Shown here piece after piece: positions 2,885 through 20,516 of a DNA stretch of 20,516 nucleotides (the first letter of the stretch is position 1; every line of letters begins with the position of its first letter). This DNA is from a virus. The notes under the pieces were generated by a model. It was not told the DNA's origin. It saw nothing but the letters and a program-made list of their open reading frames with translations, and ran no database searches. The stretch is taken from positions 1-20,516 of IMG/VR virus record IMGVR_UViG_3300020205_000663. One strand, given 5' to 3'. Both the position numbers and the translations under genes were made by a program.

Positions 2885-4012
2885 TTAGTACCCCGGAGTC
2901 CAACATAGAACTACAAAACCCCTACCGCCACTTCCTGCTCCATAAACACCCCCACCCCCACCGCCACCTAGCCCACCATTACCACCAGTAGCATAAGAGT
3001 TATCGCCGCCACCGCCACCGCCCATCAAGCCTCCATCACCACCTTTAGAATTAGTTGAACCAAACGAACCACCACCACCTGCACCAATACCACCATTTCC
3101 GCCATTACCATGAGCCGATCCACTTCCATAAACACCCCCGCCCCCACCACCACTTGCCCCTGATGATGCTGGAATGCGAATACTAGTAGTGCTGTTGTAG
3201 TAAGCACCGTACCCGCCACCACCAATCACTCTTTTATAAACAATGTCTAGAAAATTGGCTTGTGTTGGTGTTGGTTGTGTACCCGCAAAAAATGGGTAAG
3301 GACTTGTAGCAGATTGATAGGGAGCTTGACCCCCTCCGGGGCCACCACCATTTGAGCCTTGATTTGTATTACCTTGTTGACCAGCACCAGATGTACCTCC
3401 CCCACTGCCACCTATTTGCGTCCCAGTACCCGATTTCCCACCGATATTTCCAATTCCAGCACCACCGACAAAATCATTTGATGTGCCTGAGTTTAATCCA
3501 CCACCACCACCACTAGCTGAACTTTGCTGACCACCTCTGCCGCCAGTGCCGTAGGGCGAACCGGCAGCCCCACCGCCACCGTTGCCATCAGCCCCTTGTC
3601 CACCGCTTGCTGTAAAGGCTTGGTTTACACCAGTAGCTGTCCCAGTGCCGCCTGCACCTCCAATTGAAGAACCTCCTGTCGCTCCACCTGTAGCACTTAA
3701 CAAAGTTCCAAATGAACTAGTTCCTGTGGCAGCACCTACTGTGATAGTGGGCAATGCTTGACCCGGAGTCACATCAATAATTCCTTGTGCATAACCCCCA
3801 CCGCCACCACCTTCACCAGCGTTAGTCCAACCATTGCCACCACCGCCTACTACACACACCAACATTGTATAAACATTCTGCGGGACAACTTCTGCGCTTG
3901 TGGTTGTCAAAATAAATTTATGTTCAGTAAATGAAGGAGGAGGAGTCCCAAATATTCTCTTAGTCGGATAACCCTGCGTAATAGGATTATAGGTAAATGA
4001 AGTAGTAGCCAT
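2885..4012 (-). CDS. Glycine-rich tail adhesin
   Basis: This is a 375-residue protein in which almost everything from residue 54 to about 365 is glycine-rich: VVGGGGNGW, EGGGGGGYAQG, GGSGGGTSGAGQQG, ASGGGGGGVYGSGS, MGGGGGGDNSYATGG. The non-glycine start (1-52) and the phrase IIDVTPGQALPTITVG at 79-93 match the opening of the 'glycine-rich domain' seen in phage tail proteins. The end (FVVLCWTPGY) is a hydrophobic cap. By analogy with the gp38 adhesins of S16/T2-type phages, long Gly tracts separated by short variable loops could pack as polyglycine-II helices, with the loops binding the host receptor; that is inference. The start is well supported: GGAGGTGA sits just upstream and the ATG overlaps the previous stop by one base (TAATG). 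The downstream neighbour is a tail assembly chaperone. The Gly-codon bias also produces false frames on both strands. Confidence 0.85.
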   Translation of the reverse strand: MATTSFTYNPITQGYPTKRIFGTPPPSFTEHKFILTTTSAEVVPQNVYTMLVCVVGGGGNGWTNAGEGGGGGGYAQGIIDVTPGQALPTITVGAATGTSSFGTLLSATGGATGGSSIGGAGGTGTATGVNQAFTASGGQGADGNGGGGAAGSPYGTGGRGGQQSSASGGGGGLNSGTSNDFVGGAGIGNIGGKSGTGTQIGGSGGGTSGAGQQGNTNQGSNGGGPGGGQAPYQSATSPYPFFAGTQPTPTQANFLDIVYKRVIGGGGYGAYYNSTTSIRIPASSGASGGGGGGVYGSGSAHGNGGNGGIGAGGGGSFGSTNSKGGDGGLMGGGGGGDNSYATGGNGGLGGGGGGGVYGAGSGGRGFVVLCWTPGY

Positions 4013-12075: not shown

Positions 12076-12567
12076 TTAGAGAAACGCTTTCATTTCCAGC
12101 GGGTCGCCGGTTACTTTGCCCACGATGTCGAGATCCGCGAAGATCACAAACATTGCGAACGACTTGTCTGGCAGCTGTACTTCCCACCGATCACCGCCGT
12201 ACTTGGGAACGCGGACGTATTCGCCGGGCTGGCACCAGTTGCCTTCGGGCCATGGCTGCATCGTGTCGCGGTTCTTGAACGCGAGCGGACCCAGCGCAAT
12301 GACCTTGCCGGCCTGCGTGTTCCACTTCTCGGTTTCTTTGGTTTCAGTGTGGAAGATAATGCCGCCAGCCGATTTCAGCTTCGGGCTTCTGATCTGAACC
12401 AGCACGCGGCTACCGAACGGAATAACGCCCGGGTCTGCTTTGGGAAATGCTTGTTCAGTTAGTGTGTTTTCGATCCTTGCCATTACTATCGCACCGCCTG
12501 CCTGATTCTGCTCCACGACTACTGGAACACCATCGAGCCTGACGCGATCTTCACAGGTCGTTGTCAC
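12076..12567 (-). CDS. GroES-like co-chaperonin
   Basis: This is a 163-residue protein with a Cpn10 fold from about residue 48: GVIPFGSRVLVQI, KLKSAGGIIFHTETKE (64-79, equivalent to the GroES mobile loop with GIIF in place of the GIVL that docks on GroEL), AGKVIALGP (87-94), then PGEYVRVPKYGGDRWEV (114-130) and a final strand, FVIFADLDIVGKV. Bacterial GroES is about 97 residues; this one has a ~45-residue N-terminal extension and an insert with WPEGNWCQPG. T4 gp31 is the precedent: a phage GroES analogue that teams with host GroEL to fold the capsid protein. The gene sits between the portal and scaffold genes, as expected for that job. I use a GTG start at 12567, overlapping the previous gene by 17 bases, with an AGGA upstream; an ATG at 12483 is the alternative. 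Confidence 0.88.
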   Translation of the reverse strand: MTTTCEDRVRLDGVPVVVEQNQAGGAIVMARIENTLTEQAFPKADPGVIPFGSRVLVQIRSPKLKSAGGIIFHTETKETEKWNTQAGKVIALGPLAFKNRDTMQPWPEGNWCQPGEYVRVPKYGGDRWEVQLPDKSFAMFVIFADLDIVGKVTGDPLEMKAFL

Positions 12568-12889: not shown

Positions 12890-15385
12890 TTATGGTCCCG
12901 GGTTTATCCCAGTCCCTGTGCTTACTGCTACTCGGTTGCCCGATTCGATTTCGGCCTCGGCCAGCTGAAGAGCGGTCGTGTTGTCGGCCGTGTTCATGCG
13001 CTCGCGTGTAGCCATCTCTTCGGCTGTACGCATGTTTTCCTGCTGCTGCTCGTACTGTGCCAGCTGTGCGCGTGCCTGCTCTTGCTGCATGATTTTCATC
13101 TGCTCGATCTGGGCATCCTGAGCCTTCTGGGCCTGCTCTGCTTGCAGCTCCTGCATCTTGATCTGAGCTGCCTGCTGGGCCTTCTGTGCGTCCTGCTGCA
13201 GCGCCTCGCGCTTCACTGTGGCGTTGATGTTGGCCACAGCCAGACTGGTATCGGGCGGAGCATTCGGCGCCGGCATCTGCGGCAGCGTTGACTGCATGTG
13301 CGCGATCAGCTGCGACACCTTCAGCATGATCGGCTCGGCCTCTTCCTGTACAAGGTTGATCAGGCGAGCCTGCTCTTTGGCGTCGTCTGGCTTGATCAGC
13401 TTGTCTTTGGTGGCGTCGTCCACCGCTCGGTGTGACTCGGTGACGTAATACTGCAGAACGTGGTCTCGCAGGTGCTTGATCATTGCAGGGGCAAACGTCG
13501 GGGCCATTGCCGGGTTCGCTCCGAACACTGGTGACATCGTGAACGGCACATGCACCATCAGGTGAGCAATGTGGTTCTGTATCGGCAGCACAAAGATGGG
13601 AGCACCCATGACCGCCGCCATGTTCTCAGAGGCGGGATCCATATTCTCCATCTCGCCGCCGCTAACCAGAATGTCCTCATCTTGCTTCATCTGACGCAGG
13701 AACATTGCTTCGACTTTGCGAGGGTCGTACAGCTGCGGTTTTGCGTCTGCTCGCTGCAGGATTGCCTGCACCTTCGCAAACCTTTGGGCCTCGCTGAACA
13801 CCTGCGGGTCGGATACCGGGACAACGTCAACCGGGCCATCAAAGTCGGCCGGCGTGACTTCAAAGTCGCCAGCCTTCTTGATGTCTTCCTCGGTCAGGTA
13901 GCTGCTGTTGATCCGGTGCAGGATCTTCAGGCTCTCGGCCATGGCGTTGTGCATGCGTGCGTGGATGCTGGAGAACACGACCATGCCCTGTTCGATCAGA
14001 GCCAGCGTGGTTCCCACCGGAGCATTCGCGTTTTGATCTGCCAAGCTCTCAAACGATGTCTGCACCACTCCACGGCCGGCGTCGACAAGAAATCCCAACA
14101 GCTGGAACAGCGTCGGGCTTGGGCCGGGGAACGGCAGCGGCATCACCAGCTTGCGGATGTCGTCCTGCATCGGGCCACCTTCAAGCTCTGCGATCTGCGT
14201 AGGCTGCAGCGTGATCGTTTGTGAGGTAGGTCCGCCCTTCAACTTCAGCGCTGTCGGGATGTTCTGGATGTGAGCGGAGTCCATCAGCGCACGTAGCGAT
14301 CCTGTTGCCGCAGCGGTGAGACCGCCGATCATGTGCGTCAGGCCGATCGCCATCGCACCACGCCACGGGATCATCGGGAACTCCACAATCCACATCAGCT
14401 CTTCGTAGTTCTCGTCCTTTGGATCCCAGTTGCGGTACAGGTTCAGGCCGCGCTGCATGTTGTCGTCGATGCTGATGATGTACGGCCGCATGCCATCCCC
14501 TTCGATGTCGCACATCAGCGATATCTCGTACACGGTACGCAGACCGTCCTCGTTGTACGGCGACGACTTCTTACCTTCGATCTTGTCGTTGGCCTTGGAC
14601 GCTTTCGAGAAGTCTGGCTCAGGCGAGCTGGCCAGCACCAAATCACGGTACATGCCGATATCGACACGGCGCTCAAACTCTTGCGCAGTCACATATTGGC
14701 GATGAGTCTTGCGCTCGGCGGTGTAGAAGTTGGTCGCCGCAAACGGGATGAAGATATCGTCAACCGGAATGAACTCGGCGCACGGTCTACGCAGAGTGCC
14801 GCCCCAGTACCACTTCATGTACTGCACGCCGCCAAGTGGGATCTGGGTCGTCAGCTGCTCATGCTCTGCGCGCAGCCCCTTGATCTGCTGCGTCATCTGC
14901 CAGTTCATGAAGTCGGTCTTGCGCTCGGCCTTGTCGGTTTTCTCTTTGTCGATCTTGCCAAAGATCTTCGACTTGACTGGTCCGCCGGGCGGGAATATCT
15001 CTTTCATGACGCGAGCGGAGAAGTCCACGCATGACTGGATCAGCATCGGGTGAACGATTTTGGTGGCACCACTGAACTGCGCACCGCCGGGCGAGTCGTT
15101 GCCCATGCCTGTACGCTTCAAGCCCTCTTCGTAAAGCTCGTCACGACGCTGTCTGGCTTCCTTGTCGATCTCGATCTTGTCCAGCAGGTCCGACACAAGC
15201 CGGGACAGCTCGCGCTGGTCAACCTCTTCGATGATGTTGGCAAAGTGCTCTTCGCTTTTCTGCGCTTTCTCAACGCCGTCGTCGAGCGTGACGAGCGCAC
15301 CACCGTCTTCGGTGTCCTCGACCTCGCTCTCTTCCTCGTCGATCTCGACCAGTTCTTCGTCTTCGCCAGTCCGGTTATCTGCCAT
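12890..15385 (-). CDS. Portal protein (P22-like)
   Basis: This is an 831-residue portal, which forms the dodecameric ring through which DNA enters and leaves the head. The N-terminus (1-36) is very acidic. The core begins near residue 57 (LSRLVSDLLDKIEIDKEARQ) and contains VHPMLIQSCVDFSARVMKEIFPPGG (111-135), a signature of P22-type and related podovirus portals, and PVDDIFIPFAATN (207-219). Residues ~720-815 are Gln/Ala-rich and coiled-coil (KAQQAAQIKMQELQAEQAQ), matching the C-terminal helical barrel of the P22 portal. P22's protein is 725 residues, so this one is somewhat longer, partly from the acidic head. The Shine-Dalgarno is weak (AGGT), and three 11-base repeats fill the 33 bases before the ATG, so start control may be unusual. 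The stop is followed by a small basic gene. Confidence 0.92.
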   Translation of the reverse strand: MADNRTGEDEELVEIDEEESEVEDTEDGGALVTLDDGVEKAQKSEEHFANIIEEVDQRELSRLVSDLLDKIEIDKEARQRRDELYEEGLKRTGMGNDSPGGAQFSGATKIVHPMLIQSCVDFSARVMKEIFPPGGPVKSKIFGKIDKEKTDKAERKTDFMNWQMTQQIKGLRAEHEQLTTQIPLGGVQYMKWYWGGTLRRPCAEFIPVDDIFIPFAATNFYTAERKTHRQYVTAQEFERRVDIGMYRDLVLASSPEPDFSKASKANDKIEGKKSSPYNEDGLRTVYEISLMCDIEGDGMRPYIISIDDNMQRGLNLYRNWDPKDENYEELMWIVEFPMIPWRGAMAIGLTHMIGGLTAAATGSLRALMDSAHIQNIPTALKLKGGPTSQTITLQPTQIAELEGGPMQDDIRKLVMPLPFPGPSPTLFQLLGFLVDAGRGVVQTSFESLADQNANAPVGTTLALIEQGMVVFSSIHARMHNAMAESLKILHRINSSYLTEEDIKKAGDFEVTPADFDGPVDVVPVSDPQVFSEAQRFAKVQAILQRADAKPQLYDPRKVEAMFLRQMKQDEDILVSGGEMENMDPASENMAAVMGAPIFVLPIQNHIAHLMVHVPFTMSPVFGANPAMAPTFAPAMIKHLRDHVLQYYVTESHRAVDDATKDKLIKPDDAKEQARLINLVQEEAEPIMLKVSQLIAHMQSTLPQMPAPNAPPDTSLAVANINATVKREALQQDAQKAQQAAQIKMQELQAEQAQKAQDAQIEQMKIMQQEQARAQLAQYEQQQENMRTAEEMATRERMNTADNTTALQLAEAEIESGNRVAVSTGTGINPGP

Positions 15386-15418
15386 GTTGCGTACCTGTTG
15401 CGTGTTTGCTGCGTTTGT
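15386..15418. repeat. Three 11-bp direct repeats (iterons) abutting the portal start codon
   Basis: On the plus strand the units are GTTGCGTACCT, GTTGCGTGTTT and GCTGCGTTTGT, end to end, with consensus G(T/C)TGCGTNNNT. The array starts at the base next to the portal ATG and ends at the -10 region of the plus-strand promoter candidate. An 11-bp period places all copies on one face of the helix, as for an operator. On the portal mRNA the same array reads as three ACGCA(A/G)C units just before the start codon. Confidence 0.7.
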
Positions 15419-15425
15419 ATATACT
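15398..15425 (+). promoter_or_regulatory. Sigma70-type promoter candidate for the plus-strand gene
   Basis: TTGCGT (15398-15403), a 16-base spacer and TATACT (15420-15425) give a reasonable -35/-10 pair. The -10 differs from TATAAT at one base. Transcription would start near 15432, about 37 bases before the ATG at 15469. The -35 lies inside the second 11-bp repeat, so a protein bound there would block it. The GTATATAC palindrome could also give a minus-strand -10, but no -35 partner is visible on that side. Confidence 0.5.
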
Positions 15426-15468
15426 GTGTACTGGGCTATGTTGCCCGATACCCTCTATGGAGGATGCT

Positions 15469-15663
15469 ATGCCATTCGTTAAACTTGCTTCAGGCTTTGA
15501 GCTCTGGAAAGGCGAGATACCTGACCCCGAGGCCCACTACGCACGCATCTCCGGTTTGCGGATGTTCCCGTCCGCTAATTTGAAACCTCAAGCCCATCCT
15601 GCTGCGAGTCCTGCTGATTCAGTATCGGCAACAGAACCCCCATCACAGCAGCCGGCAAAATGA
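15469..15663 (+). CDS. 64-residue plus-strand protein, antisense to the structural operon
   Basis: This is the only plus-strand gene I can support. The ATG has GGAGG five bases upstream, and a promoter candidate stands at a fitting distance. The first 35 codons (MPFVKLASGFELWKGEIPDP, then EAHYARISGLRMFPSANL) fall in a gap that carries no minus-strand gene, so the open frame is not a shadow; they look like a folded aromatic-containing peptide. The rest (QAHPAASPADSVSATEPPSQ) is low-complexity and runs 89 bases into the 3' end of the convergent 417-residue gene. No signal peptide, cysteine or known family is seen. A nearby in-frame ATG at 15457 overlaps the Shine-Dalgarno, so 15469 is preferred. 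It may be a small regulator or host-takeover peptide of the moron type, or a non-functional remnant; the evidence favours expression but does not prove it. Confidence 0.55.
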   Translation: MPFVKLASGFELWKGEIPDPEAHYARISGLRMFPSANLKPQAHPAASPADSVSATEPPSQQPAK

Positions 15664-16828
15664 CGCCAGCCTCCAGCGCTGCTCTCAGCCCATCATAGCC
15701 GCCCTTGGCGATGATCTTCCTCGCACGCTGAATATCGTCGCGCATGATGCTGCCTGTCGTTGCTGCTCGCTCTTCATCGCGCATCATGTTCCAGTATGAC
15801 TTAGTGCGCATTTCTGGCTCAAGTGCTCGCATCAGGTCTTGGTTGGCATCCAGCTTATCAAGCAAGCGCTTTGTGACAAGCCCTTGGCCGGGCCGCGCAA
15901 GCTCGTCTTGAATGCTCTGCTGCCCAGCGACAATCTTGTGCTGCCACCCACGCTGGCCGCCCATTTCGTCACTGATGTCGCGTCCCAATTGCCCGCTGAG
16001 CGCTTCTTCAAGCTGCTCACCTGTACGCGCCGCGCCTATATCCGTCCACGGAGCGTTGATCATATTGATCCCGCTTCCGGTGTCGGTTGCAAACATGCCA
16101 TTACGATCTGCCAGCGCCGCAATCCTGCTCATTTTTTCCGGTGTAGGGTTTCCAGTCATCGGAATTGTGACACTGGTGCGCTCATCTAACCGAGCAAGCT
16201 CGTCGGGGATAATTGCGTGATAGCCGCCGGCGTTCTGCGCATCTGTGATTGCCCTGACCAACTCTGCCGCTTCCATCTTTTCAAGATCTTCCGGCAATAT
16301 CCCGTTCGCGTCCATCCGCACCATCGGCCGCGCCACTTCGCCCGGGTTGATCTCCAGCGTGCCACCTACTGGCGTGTACGCTCCAACCATTCTATTGGAC
16401 GGCTGTGTAGGCAAGCCTGCAGCCATGTACAGCCTATCGCGGCCCTGCTCATCCAACCATGACGAGCGAGGGTCCATCTGGAACGCCAGACGCTCTTCGT
16501 AGGGCGCAGAAAGCAGATCCTGCAGATGGCCAGAGCCTGCGCCCGGCGCCTGCTCATGCGTGCCAGCGGCAGGAAAGCGCCTCTCGCTTACCGCCTTGGG
16601 CGCTCCGCGAACGGCCTTGGTGACCTTGCGGACAATGTCTCCCTTGGCGTACTTTTCGACGAGACTGCCCATGTCGATGTTGTCCAGATTCGCAGGTCGA
16701 AAGATATCTGGCAGGCCATCCTCATCATCATCGTCTGGCGCATCGCCAAACCGCACCAGATTGAGATAGTTCTCTTTCGTCAGGGGGATGTCGGCCTCAA
16801 TCATCATTTTAACGATTTCATCTTCCAT
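15575..16828 (-). CDS. 417-residue putative virion/internal protein with C-terminal hydrophobic segment
   Basis: I do not recognise this family. It starts MEDEIVKMMIEADIPLTKEN, has an acidic patch, DAPDDDDEDG (29-38), then EKYAKGDIVRKVTKAVRG (58-75), a motif shared with the upstream giant protein. The middle reads as a mixed alpha/beta domain (PVGGTLEINPGEVARPMVRMD, GYHAIIPDELARLDERTSV, FATDTGSGINMINAPW). A second AKGG at 374-377 precedes a hydrophobic segment, LRAALEAGVILPAAVMGVLL (381-400), close to the C-terminus: a single membrane-spanning or membrane-inserting helix. The ATG lies inside the last codons of the giant gene (11-base overlap), implying coupled synthesis. Location just upstream of the portal, the shared motif and the hydrophobic tail suggest a protein carried in the head and ejected with DNA; this is inference. 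Confidence 0.78.
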   Translation of the reverse strand: MEDEIVKMMIEADIPLTKENYLNLVRFGDAPDDDDEDGLPDIFRPANLDNIDMGSLVEKYAKGDIVRKVTKAVRGAPKAVSERRFPAAGTHEQAPGAGSGHLQDLLSAPYEERLAFQMDPRSSWLDEQGRDRLYMAAGLPTQPSNRMVGAYTPVGGTLEINPGEVARPMVRMDANGILPEDLEKMEAAELVRAITDAQNAGGYHAIIPDELARLDERTSVTIPMTGNPTPEKMSRIAALADRNGMFATDTGSGINMINAPWTDIGAARTGEQLEEALSGQLGRDISDEMGGQRGWQHKIVAGQQSIQDELARPGQGLVTKRLLDKLDANQDLMRALEPEMRTKSYWNMMRDEERAATTGSIMRDDIQRARKIIAKGGYDGLRAALEAGVILPAAVMGVLLPILNQQDSQQDGLEVSN

Positions 16829-19800
16829 TCCAGTCCGGCAGATTCATGCCGCCTCCGATATCAAGTAGTTGCTCTCTCATCTGATCGCCAGATATTCGCT
16901 TGTGTCTATAGTCTTTCATAGCGCCGGTAACCTGTTCTTGCAGTGACTTGTTTCTCTTTGCGACCGGGTCATAAAGGCCGCGTATTCCTTCCCATGTGAT
17001 TGACTGCATGGCGCGAGGATACTCAATGCCTCGCTCTGCAGCAGCTCGCCTTACAGCGTCTGCGTACAGGCCGTATGTTCCCTGCGCCCCAGTGATATCG
17101 CTTGAAGATGCGCCACCAAGGTTATGCTTCACTTCCAGCGAATTCCCAGATAGCGGACGGAATAGCGCTGCAGCGACATTGTGAGTGTCCGACGTTACGC
17201 TTTTCCCAGCCCACGGATTCACAATGTTGTTATAGAAGCTGCGCACCTTGTGCATATTGCCAAGCATGTTGGCGACGTTATCAATTTCAGGATTTTCAAA
17301 AATTGAAATCGCTTTCTGTATGTCTTTGAGCGACCCCCAGCCAGCTGCAGCCAACTCGCCCTTTTGCGTGAGGCGCGGACCTATAACATTCCCCATTGGG
17401 TCGACAATGTCAAAACTCCTTGGGTTGTGAGCCTCATCGTACAGCCTCAACCACACCGCTTTTTTTGCTGGAGAGTTTAGCTCGCCGTAACTTTTGTCTC
17501 TGATCAAGTCGACAATTTTTGCCGTCGCCTCATTAAATCCGCCTTTCGGCATGGCAATTAACTGCTTTGCTTTGCGCAGCATTTCAGGCGTGAATCTGGT
17601 GTCTCTCTGCGTGTGAGCGATGTCCATGACTCGATTGCCAAGAGACACGTTCTTGTACCAATCCATTTGCGGAGAAAGTGATGCGTATACGCCAGCAGCT
17701 CCCTCGATAGGTATCCCATACTTGGTGGCAGCATCGTCGGCAATCTTGTTGGCGCCTTCGTACCAGCGCGACGACATGCGCCTTGTGTCGGGCGGCATCA
17801 TGTCGTGCAGGGCCAGCAAATTTTCTACCGCATGATCACCCATAAAGCTGAAAACTGATTCTGGATCTTTGGACCCGTAGCGCGGATAGTTCAGGTATTT
17901 CCGCATGACATCCGCCTGCTTGCGCATCTGCTCTGGGTTTTCCCGAATCACATCGACGCCGATAGTTAAAGCGGGATCGTGCGGGTCACCGCTGAATTGT
18001 ACTGCTGTCGGCACGCGCTCTGACACTTGAGCGCCAGCTCTGATATCTCGATTCAGAAACTCTCGCTCTGCTGCGCCAATGCCGTCGGCTTGCGCTGCTT
18101 TCTTGTTTGCCTCAAGCGCATTCGTAACTATGTCGAACAGGTCGCCCTTGGCATACCCCGGCAGCGAGCCGTAAACATTCGACGCGATGCGCTCGCGGGC
18201 TGCTGCTCTTTCGCTGGCCTCATGGGCCGCTTCTTTCGCCGCCTCAAGCGTTGCATACCTGTCGCTTGCGAGTGACGCATCTCTTGCGCGTGCAAACGCA
18301 GCGTCGGTGATCCTACTGCCTGCACCTTCAAAGCCAAGCGACGCCAGCAGTCGATCAGACTCATCTGCATCGATAGGCGTGTCGGATCCAAGGCCGTACT
18401 TCTCGGCGAGAGACATCATGCCGCCAACAACAGGTGGCAGCGCTTCGTTGAGCGCAATGCCTCCACCAACGCCGCCAATAAGGTTCCTCAGCGTCGGGGT
18501 CAGAAACGGCCCAAGATACTCAAACGGTGCGCGTATCACCTCCTTCAGGAGGCTTTTGTTTTTCAGCGCCCCTGCCGCCCCGCCAGCTAATATCTGGCCA
18601 ATCACTTCTCCGCCGATGGTTCCCCAGCGCTCGCCCCGGCTCAGGTTGTCAGGGTCCAGCCCCGCCTGTCCAAGATGCTTTCTCATGTCAAAGTCATACG
18701 CCGCGCCAGCAGCTTCTGCCATCGGATTCTCGCCCGGCAGAAACTGACCCATGCTCACGGTGTTGTTGAATATGCCGGGCGCCGTGTAGTTGTGCCTGTT
18801 GCCATCCTCGTCGCCCCACGCCACCTTTTGAGGTGTCCATGACGCTCTGTACGCGGCTCGCGCTGCATACATCGGATCCAGTAGCTCGTCGATCATGCTG
18901 ATGCCGGTCTTATCACGCGACTGCGCTTTTGCAAATTCCTTGTCCCAGTCGTAGCTGTCACGCACATCTGGTCTCTTCGCCATACCACCCTCTTTCATGC
19001 CATTAGGCTTGTTGGTTGCCTGCAGTTTCGCTGTGATATCGGCAATTTCCTGCTCTGTAAGATAGTCAGGCAGATCGATACCCTCTGCTCGCGCTTTTGT
19101 TATGGAGTATGGCTGGAACGCCTCTGCCGCCCGACGAAGCCCAGTGTGGTGCAGATCGCCGACGTTGGCCCATTTCTGCGACCTCACAAAGTCCTGCACA
19201 AATGGAAGATACCGATCCACAGGCATCCGGTCCCCGTGGCCCTTGACCTGCCGTATTTCGGGGCGCATCAGCTCCTCGTATACGTCAGGGCGCACATTCC
19301 GCACGTAGTTGTGCAAGTCCGCGTATCCGCCGCGCTTGGTTCGCTGCTCCAGATAATCATCGAACGTGCCGGGGGCCACTTCGTCAATTGTGTCACCTGA
19401 CAGCATGTCATTGCTTCTTGGGCCGCTTGTCTCAATCGTAACGTGCGGAGCGCCTCGCTTGTCTCGCAGCGAGAACACTCGCGACATACCATCGAACACA
19501 TCGTCGCAATAGCCGCTGTCTGGATTGCCAAGGCAGTGATGCATCTGGTCTGATTCGTATTTCATTGCATCCCTGATGCTCTGGTAGCCGCCATCGTCAT
19601 CTTTGCCGATCACCCTCAGCGCTTTCTCCAGCGCCTCTTCCTCGGTCGCGTAACTACCAAGCGGCGCCTCATCACCAAGGGGGTAGTGAAGTACATACCG
19701 GCCACTCTGGCGCGACATATCATTGCTCGGACCAATGCTGTAACCCTCTGGCAACTTAGTCAGCTTGTCCTTGGGCTTGATCTCAACCCAGCGCATGTCC

Positions 19801-20516
19801 TTTTCTGGGTACTCTTTGTGGATGAACGTGGCCGGGTTCATTGACGCAGCCAGCTCCGCCTTCGCACTTTCTGCAGCGCGCCATGCGTTGATCTTGCCCA
19901 CCAACTGCGACGCCTGCGCAACCGATACTCTCGGCAGCGACTCTGGCTTCAGGCGCAGCATGTCAGGCAGGTCGGAGTCTGGGCGCATCGCGTTGTGCAG
20001 CTCGTCGCGGAGGCGCTGCAGCCCGAGATCATGTACTCTGACATCCCCGTACAGAATCGTTTCTTTTGGAAGCGACGCAAGCCACGGATTTTCCGCCATA
20101 ACCTTATCAATATACGCTTTTGGCCTGCCCGATGGGTTGGTCAGCCAATCGAGGGTGTCTGATGACACGCCAGAAAGGCCGATATCTCCTGTCGGCCTTC
20201 TCGGAGGCCACACAGCGTTCGTCTGCGAATCACGCATCCGCCCTTCATCCAACAACGGCACATGCCTCTGCTCCGGTGCCAGCAGCGCAAGCGGATCATT
20301 CGGCGAGCCGTAGTCGCGCTTGATGTACTTTGCAAGAGAGGTGTCGATCCAGTTGTTCAGCGCTGCGACCTCGGGCTTCTCAACGTCGGCGCGCTTCAAT
20401 GGCGCCAGACTCTTCTCCGGGTAGCCCTTCAGCCACTGGCGAACCAGATTGCCCTTCTGGTACTTCTGGATCAGTCCGCCCTTGTTGTACTTGCGAGCAA
20501 GGTCAACCAGACCGCC
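16818..20516 (-). CDS. Giant multidomain (polyvalent-type) protein, 5' end outside window
   Basis: The frame enters from the right edge and is open for 1,232 codons; the true start is outside. Residue numbers count from the edge. KYNKGGLIQKYQKGNLV is at 9-25. A PcfJ-like segment is at about 310-362: QMHHCLG (324-330), GYCDDVFDGM and RVFSLRDKRGAPHVTIE. Residues 630-705 are Gly/Ala-rich and hydrophobic (WGTIGGEVIGQILAGGAAGAL, NLIGGVGGGIAL), then a charged Ala-rich helix, LPGYAKGDLF (785-794), and a C-terminal domain from ~845. That domain has WYEGANKIADDAATKYGIP, YASLSPQMDWYKN (944-956) and VTSDTHNVAA (1107-1116). Stitching of unrelated domains on one very long chain is the mark of phage polyvalent proteins, which are often injected with DNA. 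PcfJ-like domains are known parts of such proteins. The C-terminal domain resembles phage sequences I cannot name safely. The 417-residue gene follows with an 11-base overlap. Confidence 0.8.
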   Translation of the reverse strand, partial: GGLVDLARKYNKGGLIQKYQKGNLVRQWLKGYPEKSLAPLKRADVEKPEVAALNNWIDTSLAKYIKRDYGSPNDPLALLAPEQRHVPLLDEGRMRDSQTNAVWPPRRPTGDIGLSGVSSDTLDWLTNPSGRPKAYIDKVMAENPWLASLPKETILYGDVRVHDLGLQRLRDELHNAMRPDSDLPDMLRLKPESLPRVSVAQASQLVGKINAWRAAESAKAELAASMNPATFIHKEYPEKDMRWVEIKPKDKLTKLPEGYSIGPSNDMSRQSGRYVLHYPLGDEAPLGSYATEEEALEKALRVIGKDDDGGYQSIRDAMKYESDQMHHCLGNPDSGYCDDVFDGMSRVFSLRDKRGAPHVTIETSGPRSNDMLSGDTIDEVAPGTFDDYLEQRTKRGGYADLHNYVRNVRPDVYEELMRPEIRQVKGHGDRMPVDRYLPFVQDFVRSQKWANVGDLHHTGLRRAAEAFQPYSITKARAEGIDLPDYLTEQEIADITAKLQATNKPNGMKEGGMAKRPDVRDSYDWDKEFAKAQSRDKTGISMIDELLDPMYAARAAYRASWTPQKVAWGDEDGNRHNYTAPGIFNNTVSMGQFLPGENPMAEAAGAAYDFDMRKHLGQAGLDPDNLSRGERWGTIGGEVIGQILAGGAAGALKNKSLLKEVIRAPFEYLGPFLTPTLRNLIGGVGGGIALNEALPPVVGGMMSLAEKYGLGSDTPIDADESDRLLASLGFEGAGSRITDAAFARARDASLASDRYATLEAAKEAAHEASERAAARERIASNVYGSLPGYAKGDLFDIVTNALEANKKAAQADGIGAAEREFLNRDIRAGAQVSERVPTAVQFSGDPHDPALTIGVDVIRENPEQMRKQADVMRKYLNYPRYGSKDPESVFSFMGDHAVENLLALHDMMPPDTRRMSSRWYEGANKIADDAATKYGIPIEGAAGVYASLSPQMDWYKNVSLGNRVMDIAHTQRDTRFTPEMLRKAKQLIAMPKGGFNEATAKIVDLIRDKSYGELNSPAKKAVWLRLYDEAHNPRSFDIVDPMGNVIGPRLTQKGELAAAGWGSLKDIQKAISIFENPEIDNVANMLGNMHKVRSFYNNIVNPWAGKSVTSDTHNVAAALFRPLSGNSLEVKHNLGGASSSDITGAQGTYGLYADAVRRAAAERGIEYPRAMQSITWEGIRGLYDPVAKRNKSLQEQVTGAMKDYRHKRISGDQMREQLLDIGGGMNLPDWNGR

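Follow-up and report, generated by a model that had tools for sequence, protein, structure and literature searches.

The stretch of viral DNA analyzed here (the window; 20,516 nucleotides, IMG/VR record IMGVR_UViG_3300020205_000663) carries its structural-gene cluster on the minus strand. The gene for the portal is encoded on this strand, with its start codon at 15385-15383, and a 64-residue protein is encoded on the opposite strand beyond an 83-bp intergenic region that contains three short tandem repeats. A GroES-like co-chaperonin gene (12076-12567; phrog_3188) lies among the structural genes just past the 3′ end of the portal gene, and positions 16818-20516 encode a very large protein with a DUF7178 domain (PF23802) at residues 855-948 of the annotated open reading frame. 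The features around the intergenic region are as follows:

12890-15385, minus strand: portal (head-to-tail connector), 831 aa; matches phrog_1216 (portal, E 7e-14) and is 49% identical to a Caulobacter phage RW protein.
15386-15396: repeat unit 1, GTTGCGTACCT; on the minus strand, predicted ribosome-binding site and spacer of the portal.
15397-15407: repeat unit 2, GTTGCGTGTTT; holds the candidate -35 and forms part of the candidate plus-strand promoter.
15408-15418: repeat unit 3, GCTGCGTTTGT; spacer of the candidate plus-strand promoter.
15397-15418, plus strand: units 2 and 3 together, candidate -35 and promoter spacer; present only in the three alleles with the small gene and the promoter.
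15398-15403, plus strand: candidate -35, TTGCGT, in unit 2.
15420-15425, plus strand: candidate -10, TATACT; invariant in the three alleles, with TATAAT at the matching place in L122, L124 and L126.
15433-15446, plus strand: predicted hairpin GGGC-6-GCCC at the predicted transcript start; from RNA folding and a compensatory change.
15452-15463, plus strand: predicted hairpin CCTC-TATG-GAGG, containing the ribosome-binding site GGAGG (15459-15463); from RNA folding, sequence invariant in the three alleles.
15469-15663, plus strand: small gene, 64 aa (MPFVKLASGF...GLRMFPSAN...); supported by dN/dS, a family in 20/20 loci and a 97% profile match.
15575-16828, minus strand: 417-aa gene upstream of the portal; an open reading frame whose C-terminal module is 39-55% identical in 20 loci.

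The initial annotation drew attention to the repeats, and its description of them holds: three 11-bp units run head to tail from 15386 to 15418, adjoin the portal ATG and are followed by TATACT. Seven of the 11 columns are identical across the units. Among 300 dinucleotide shuffles of the window, 1% gave a triplet at period 11 with 7/11 or more fully identical columns, and 8% gave a comparable triplet when any period from 8 to 15 was permitted; these figures apply to a triplet chosen post hoc. The triplet is thus uncommon, not overwhelming, and its significance is modest. The window contains five occurrences of the motif GYTGCGTNNNT where 2.2 are expected, three of the five inside the triplet; the scan of the rest of the genome proposed in the initial annotation, run over the window, found no enrichment elsewhere.

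Read on the minus strand, unit 1 is AGGTACGCAAC and stands directly before the portal ATG. It contains the Shine-Dalgarno AGGT (15396-15393, minus strand) 7 nt ahead of the start codon, so the claim that the repeat takes the place of a normal Shine-Dalgarno was mistaken. Eight IMG/VR loci have portals at 98-100% identity, and the 5′ flank is included in six of them. The tract and the small gene are present in the window, L001 and L004-L006, the latter three sharing one sequence in this region. L002 and L003, with near-identical portals, lack units 2 and 3, TATACT and the small gene, and have other genes upstream of the portal; they nonetheless keep unit 1 as AGGT and a 7-nt spacer. Because AGGTACGCAAC-ATG (AGGTATGCAAC in L003) is retained in these two loci without units 2 and 3, unit 1 is, on this comparison of alleles, the predicted Shine-Dalgarno of the portal and its 7-nt spacer. 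Across alleles it reads GTTGCGTACCT, GTTGCATACCT or GTTGCGCACCT: the proposed repeat core TGCGT has changed twice independently (TGCAT in L003, TGCGC in L004) and the proposed “spacer” ACCT is invariant. An iteron array had been expected to keep its core and period in relatives while the spacer drifted, and unit 1 does the opposite. Units 2 and 3 are nearly invariant, in only three distinct alleles, on which alone they are hard to judge.

These alleles also bear on the suggestion that the repeat, as part of the portal mRNA, controls portal translation. With transcription arriving from upstream, the portal leader would include the repeat, but this form of control is unneeded, because every close allele keeps AGGT-N7-ATG whether or not it has the cassette; the fold of the portal leader is, moreover, no better than that of shuffled sequences (z -0.86), and we consider RNA-level control very improbable. 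Further afield, the 75-base 5′ flanks of about 66 portals at 50-64% identity, read by eye, contain no such repeats; most of these portals closely follow another gene and many have an ordinary ribosome-binding site. In one branch (L023, L025 and L026, at about 2885-2926) an A/C-rich leader, TATACTTCACGCAAACGAAACACACACAGAGGTAAACG-ATG, is kept upstream of the portal though the preceding gene differs, which suggests that the portal has its own promoter or leader there.

On the plus strand, units 2 and 3 would supply the -35 and spacer of a sigma-70-type promoter with TATACT as its -10. The combined site, TTGCGT-N16-TATACT, matches consensus at 8/12 positions and lies 49 nt ahead of the small-gene ATG. 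The -35 proposed in unit 2 is indeed there, at a spacing of 16 bp, but it agrees with consensus at only 3/6 positions, and a standard promoter scanner called no promoter at this site. The plus-strand promoter stands as a candidate, and 44 nt beyond its -10 lies the start of a conserved gene on that strand. Searches with the DNA of the promoter core returned five further contigs (L012, L013, L015, L016 and L019), which were set aside as promoter relatives: the match lies inside coding DNA and the phages are unrelated.

Distant homologues of the small gene (their recovery is described below) show which parts of this arrangement recur. In the branch L122-L128, a strong sigma-70-like candidate, TTGATA or TTGTTA-17-TATAAT (10-11/12 matches), is found 57 nt before the small-gene ATG. 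In L122, L124 and L126 the gene again faces a divergent neighbor, and the candidate -35 lies inside the start of that neighbor. For L124 and L128 the count of promoter hits equals the level of shuffled sequences, so that these two candidates draw their weight only from position and recurrence. No 11-bp repeats occur in the promoter regions of the L122-L128 small genes. The arrangement differs in L113-L121, where same-strand genes precede the small gene. The element in common is, as far as these candidates can be read, a small-gene promoter where the neighbor is divergent, and not an iteron array. Because the distant small genes keep a promoter candidate without the repeats, we regard the tract as probably an ordinary divergent control region of 83 bp between the minus-strand portal and a separately transcribed small gene on the plus strand, in place of the portal-control element first suggested.

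The iteron reading would instead make the tract an operator, at which a protein, perhaps a phage regulator or else the small protein, binds units one helical turn apart, covers both the -35 and the portal ribosome-binding site, and switches between small gene and portal. Like iterons and the tandem operators of cooperative DNA-binding proteins, the units stand head to tail at 11-bp steps beside a promoter candidate, and both their rarity at period 11 (about 1% of shuffles) and the near-invariance of units 2 and 3 speak for such a role. Unlike iterons, however, there are three units here, one of them a ribosome-binding site, and the core of that unit is altered in L004 while the portal Shine-Dalgarno stays. 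Unit 1 also occurs without units 2 and 3 in L002 and L003, the homologous promoter regions of L122-L128 and the flanks of the roughly 66 other portals are free of repeats, the motif is not enriched elsewhere in the window, and no second two-unit site was found in the fragments of the relatives. An operator is therefore improbable, and the portal-controlling iterons of the initial annotation are not borne out.

The -10 region raises a further alternative. Bidirectional promoters built on one near-symmetric -10, with divergent start sites 7-25 bp apart, are common in bacteria (PMC10268837), and GTATATAC is near-palindromic and symmetric in all alleles (with GTATAC in L001); it could start transcription both ways, producing an mRNA for the small gene and, for the portal, a short leader. 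In having a symmetric TATA-like core between divergent genes it resembles the bidirectional -10 promoters of Warman et al. (2021, as cited in PMC10268837). It differs from them in that the minus-strand hexamer is poor and not conserved (TATATA in the window, GTATAC in L001), with no good -35, and in that the promoter here is a candidate predicted from sequence. The portals of L002 and L003 must, in addition, be expressed without the GTATATAC element, and we consider a bidirectional promoter unlikely, if less so than an operator. A palindromic operator at 15418-15432 was also considered and rejected; its symmetry is lost in L001.

The 83-bp region itself is well conserved. Between the window and L004, the 83 bp (15386-15468) differ at three positions (96% identical), as against 25/150 in the first 50 portal codons (83% identical; Fisher P 0.003) and 47/114 in codons 1-40 of the small gene (59% identical; Fisher P 2e-10). 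L001 differs from the window at nine positions in the 83 bp, none of them among the 33 repeat bases. Recent recombination could also account for the high identity. One reading takes recombination as the only cause, the promoter as inactive and the repeats as a chance by-product of a ribosome-binding-site spacer lying beside a promoter-like spacer. This reading gains from the weak -35 and from there being three alleles only, but the first portal codons are less conserved than the intergenic region, a hairpin in that region carries a compensatory change and a conserved gene follows it; we judge this reading quite improbable.

If the control region works as we propose, RNA polymerase with the main sigma factor of the host would start rightward near 15432-15433 and produce a short mRNA for the small protein, with a leader of about 37 nt that folds into a 5′ hairpin and a second hairpin over GGAGG. 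In L001, G15435 is replaced by A together with C15444 by T, which restores a pair of the 5′ hairpin; this lone compensatory change is suggestive only, and a palindromic DNA site would leave the same pattern. The fold of the leader is modestly better than shuffles (z-scores -0.9 to -1.4). The 5′ hairpin may protect the small-gene mRNA, and the smaller one, over the Shine-Dalgarno, may adjust how efficiently that mRNA is translated. Transcription of the portal most likely arrives from upstream, within the structural-gene operon, and translation of the read-through transcript would use AGGT-N7-ATG.

The predicted beneficiary of this promoter, the small gene, has GGAGG five bases before its ATG and converges with the 417-aa minus-strand gene, whose stop is at 15575, so that the two genes share 89 bases at their 3′ ends. 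The window protein has 39-47% identity to its L001 and L004 counterparts. Over codons 1-40, dN/dS is 0.31, 0.33 and 0.17 in the three allele pairs, and because of these low ratios the small gene is very probably real and under purifying selection.

We traced its wider family by way of its neighbor. Searches with the small protein alone returned only the alleles already known, and scans of genome collections were negative; no match was found in PHROGs, Pfam or isolate phage genomes (tblastn), NCBIfam gave one chance-level match only, and a PDB profile search gave nothing significant. Searching with the C-terminal module of the neighboring large gene yielded 20 loci (including four phages already seen), and in 20/20 an antisense open reading frame with an FPSAN motif crosses or abuts the large-gene stop codon. 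The family members are 60-69 aa long and lie antisense at the 3′ end of the module, in the same frame relative to the large gene in all loci. The window subfamily matches the remaining members with an hhalign profile probability of 97% (E 1.2e-10). Although that frame is constant, the conservation of FPSAN is not explained by the overlap alone, because the motif lies anywhere between 7 bases past the large-gene stop and 23 bases within it. A structure predicted from three sequences was of poor quality (pLDDT 60); a nine-sequence model has a strand-strand-helix core at pLDDT 80-90, with a pTM of 0.37 and a low-confidence tail, and is too weak for a fold search.

The module itself (about 180 aa) is fused to different N-terminal parts depending on the locus, and the large protein varies in length accordingly: 417 aa in the window (15575-16828), at least 934 aa in L001 and L005 (1-2805) and 715 aa in L113 (1363-3510) and L114 (1348-3495). 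The large phage protein is, as these loci read, shuffled, and the small antisense gene accompanies it in every locus found. Nine portal-bearing contigs (29-68 kb) of the wider portal family contain no member of the small family. The pairing of the small gene with one C-terminal module in 20/20 loci hints that the two work together, an idea that can be tested. Tentatively, the small protein could belong to an undescribed phage family (N-terminal strand-strand-helix, FPSAN and a variable tail) whose members are obligate antisense partners of the large-protein C-terminal module, with convergent 3′ ends that overlap, and target that large protein or its mRNA; in the phages of the window, the divergent promoter would time it relative to the structural operon. 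A literature search for a described precedent returned general background only. This family, easily missed because it runs antisense within a structural cluster, is of more interest than the repeat tract.

The small gene can also be compared with phage morons and other separately transcribed accessory genes. It too has its own promoter candidate between late genes, its presence varies (it is absent from the near-identical L002 and L003) and it is protein-coding under selection (dN/dS 0.17-0.33). Unlike morons, it lies on the opposite strand in convergent overlap with the upstream gene, it is tied to the large-gene C-terminal module in every locus found, and no terminator-like site was found near 15663 in a scan of 14900-16000. 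In L114, a 125-aa protein without a family match (3618-3995, minus strand) is encoded just before the small gene and overlaps its start; by impression it is a possible DNA-binding regulator.
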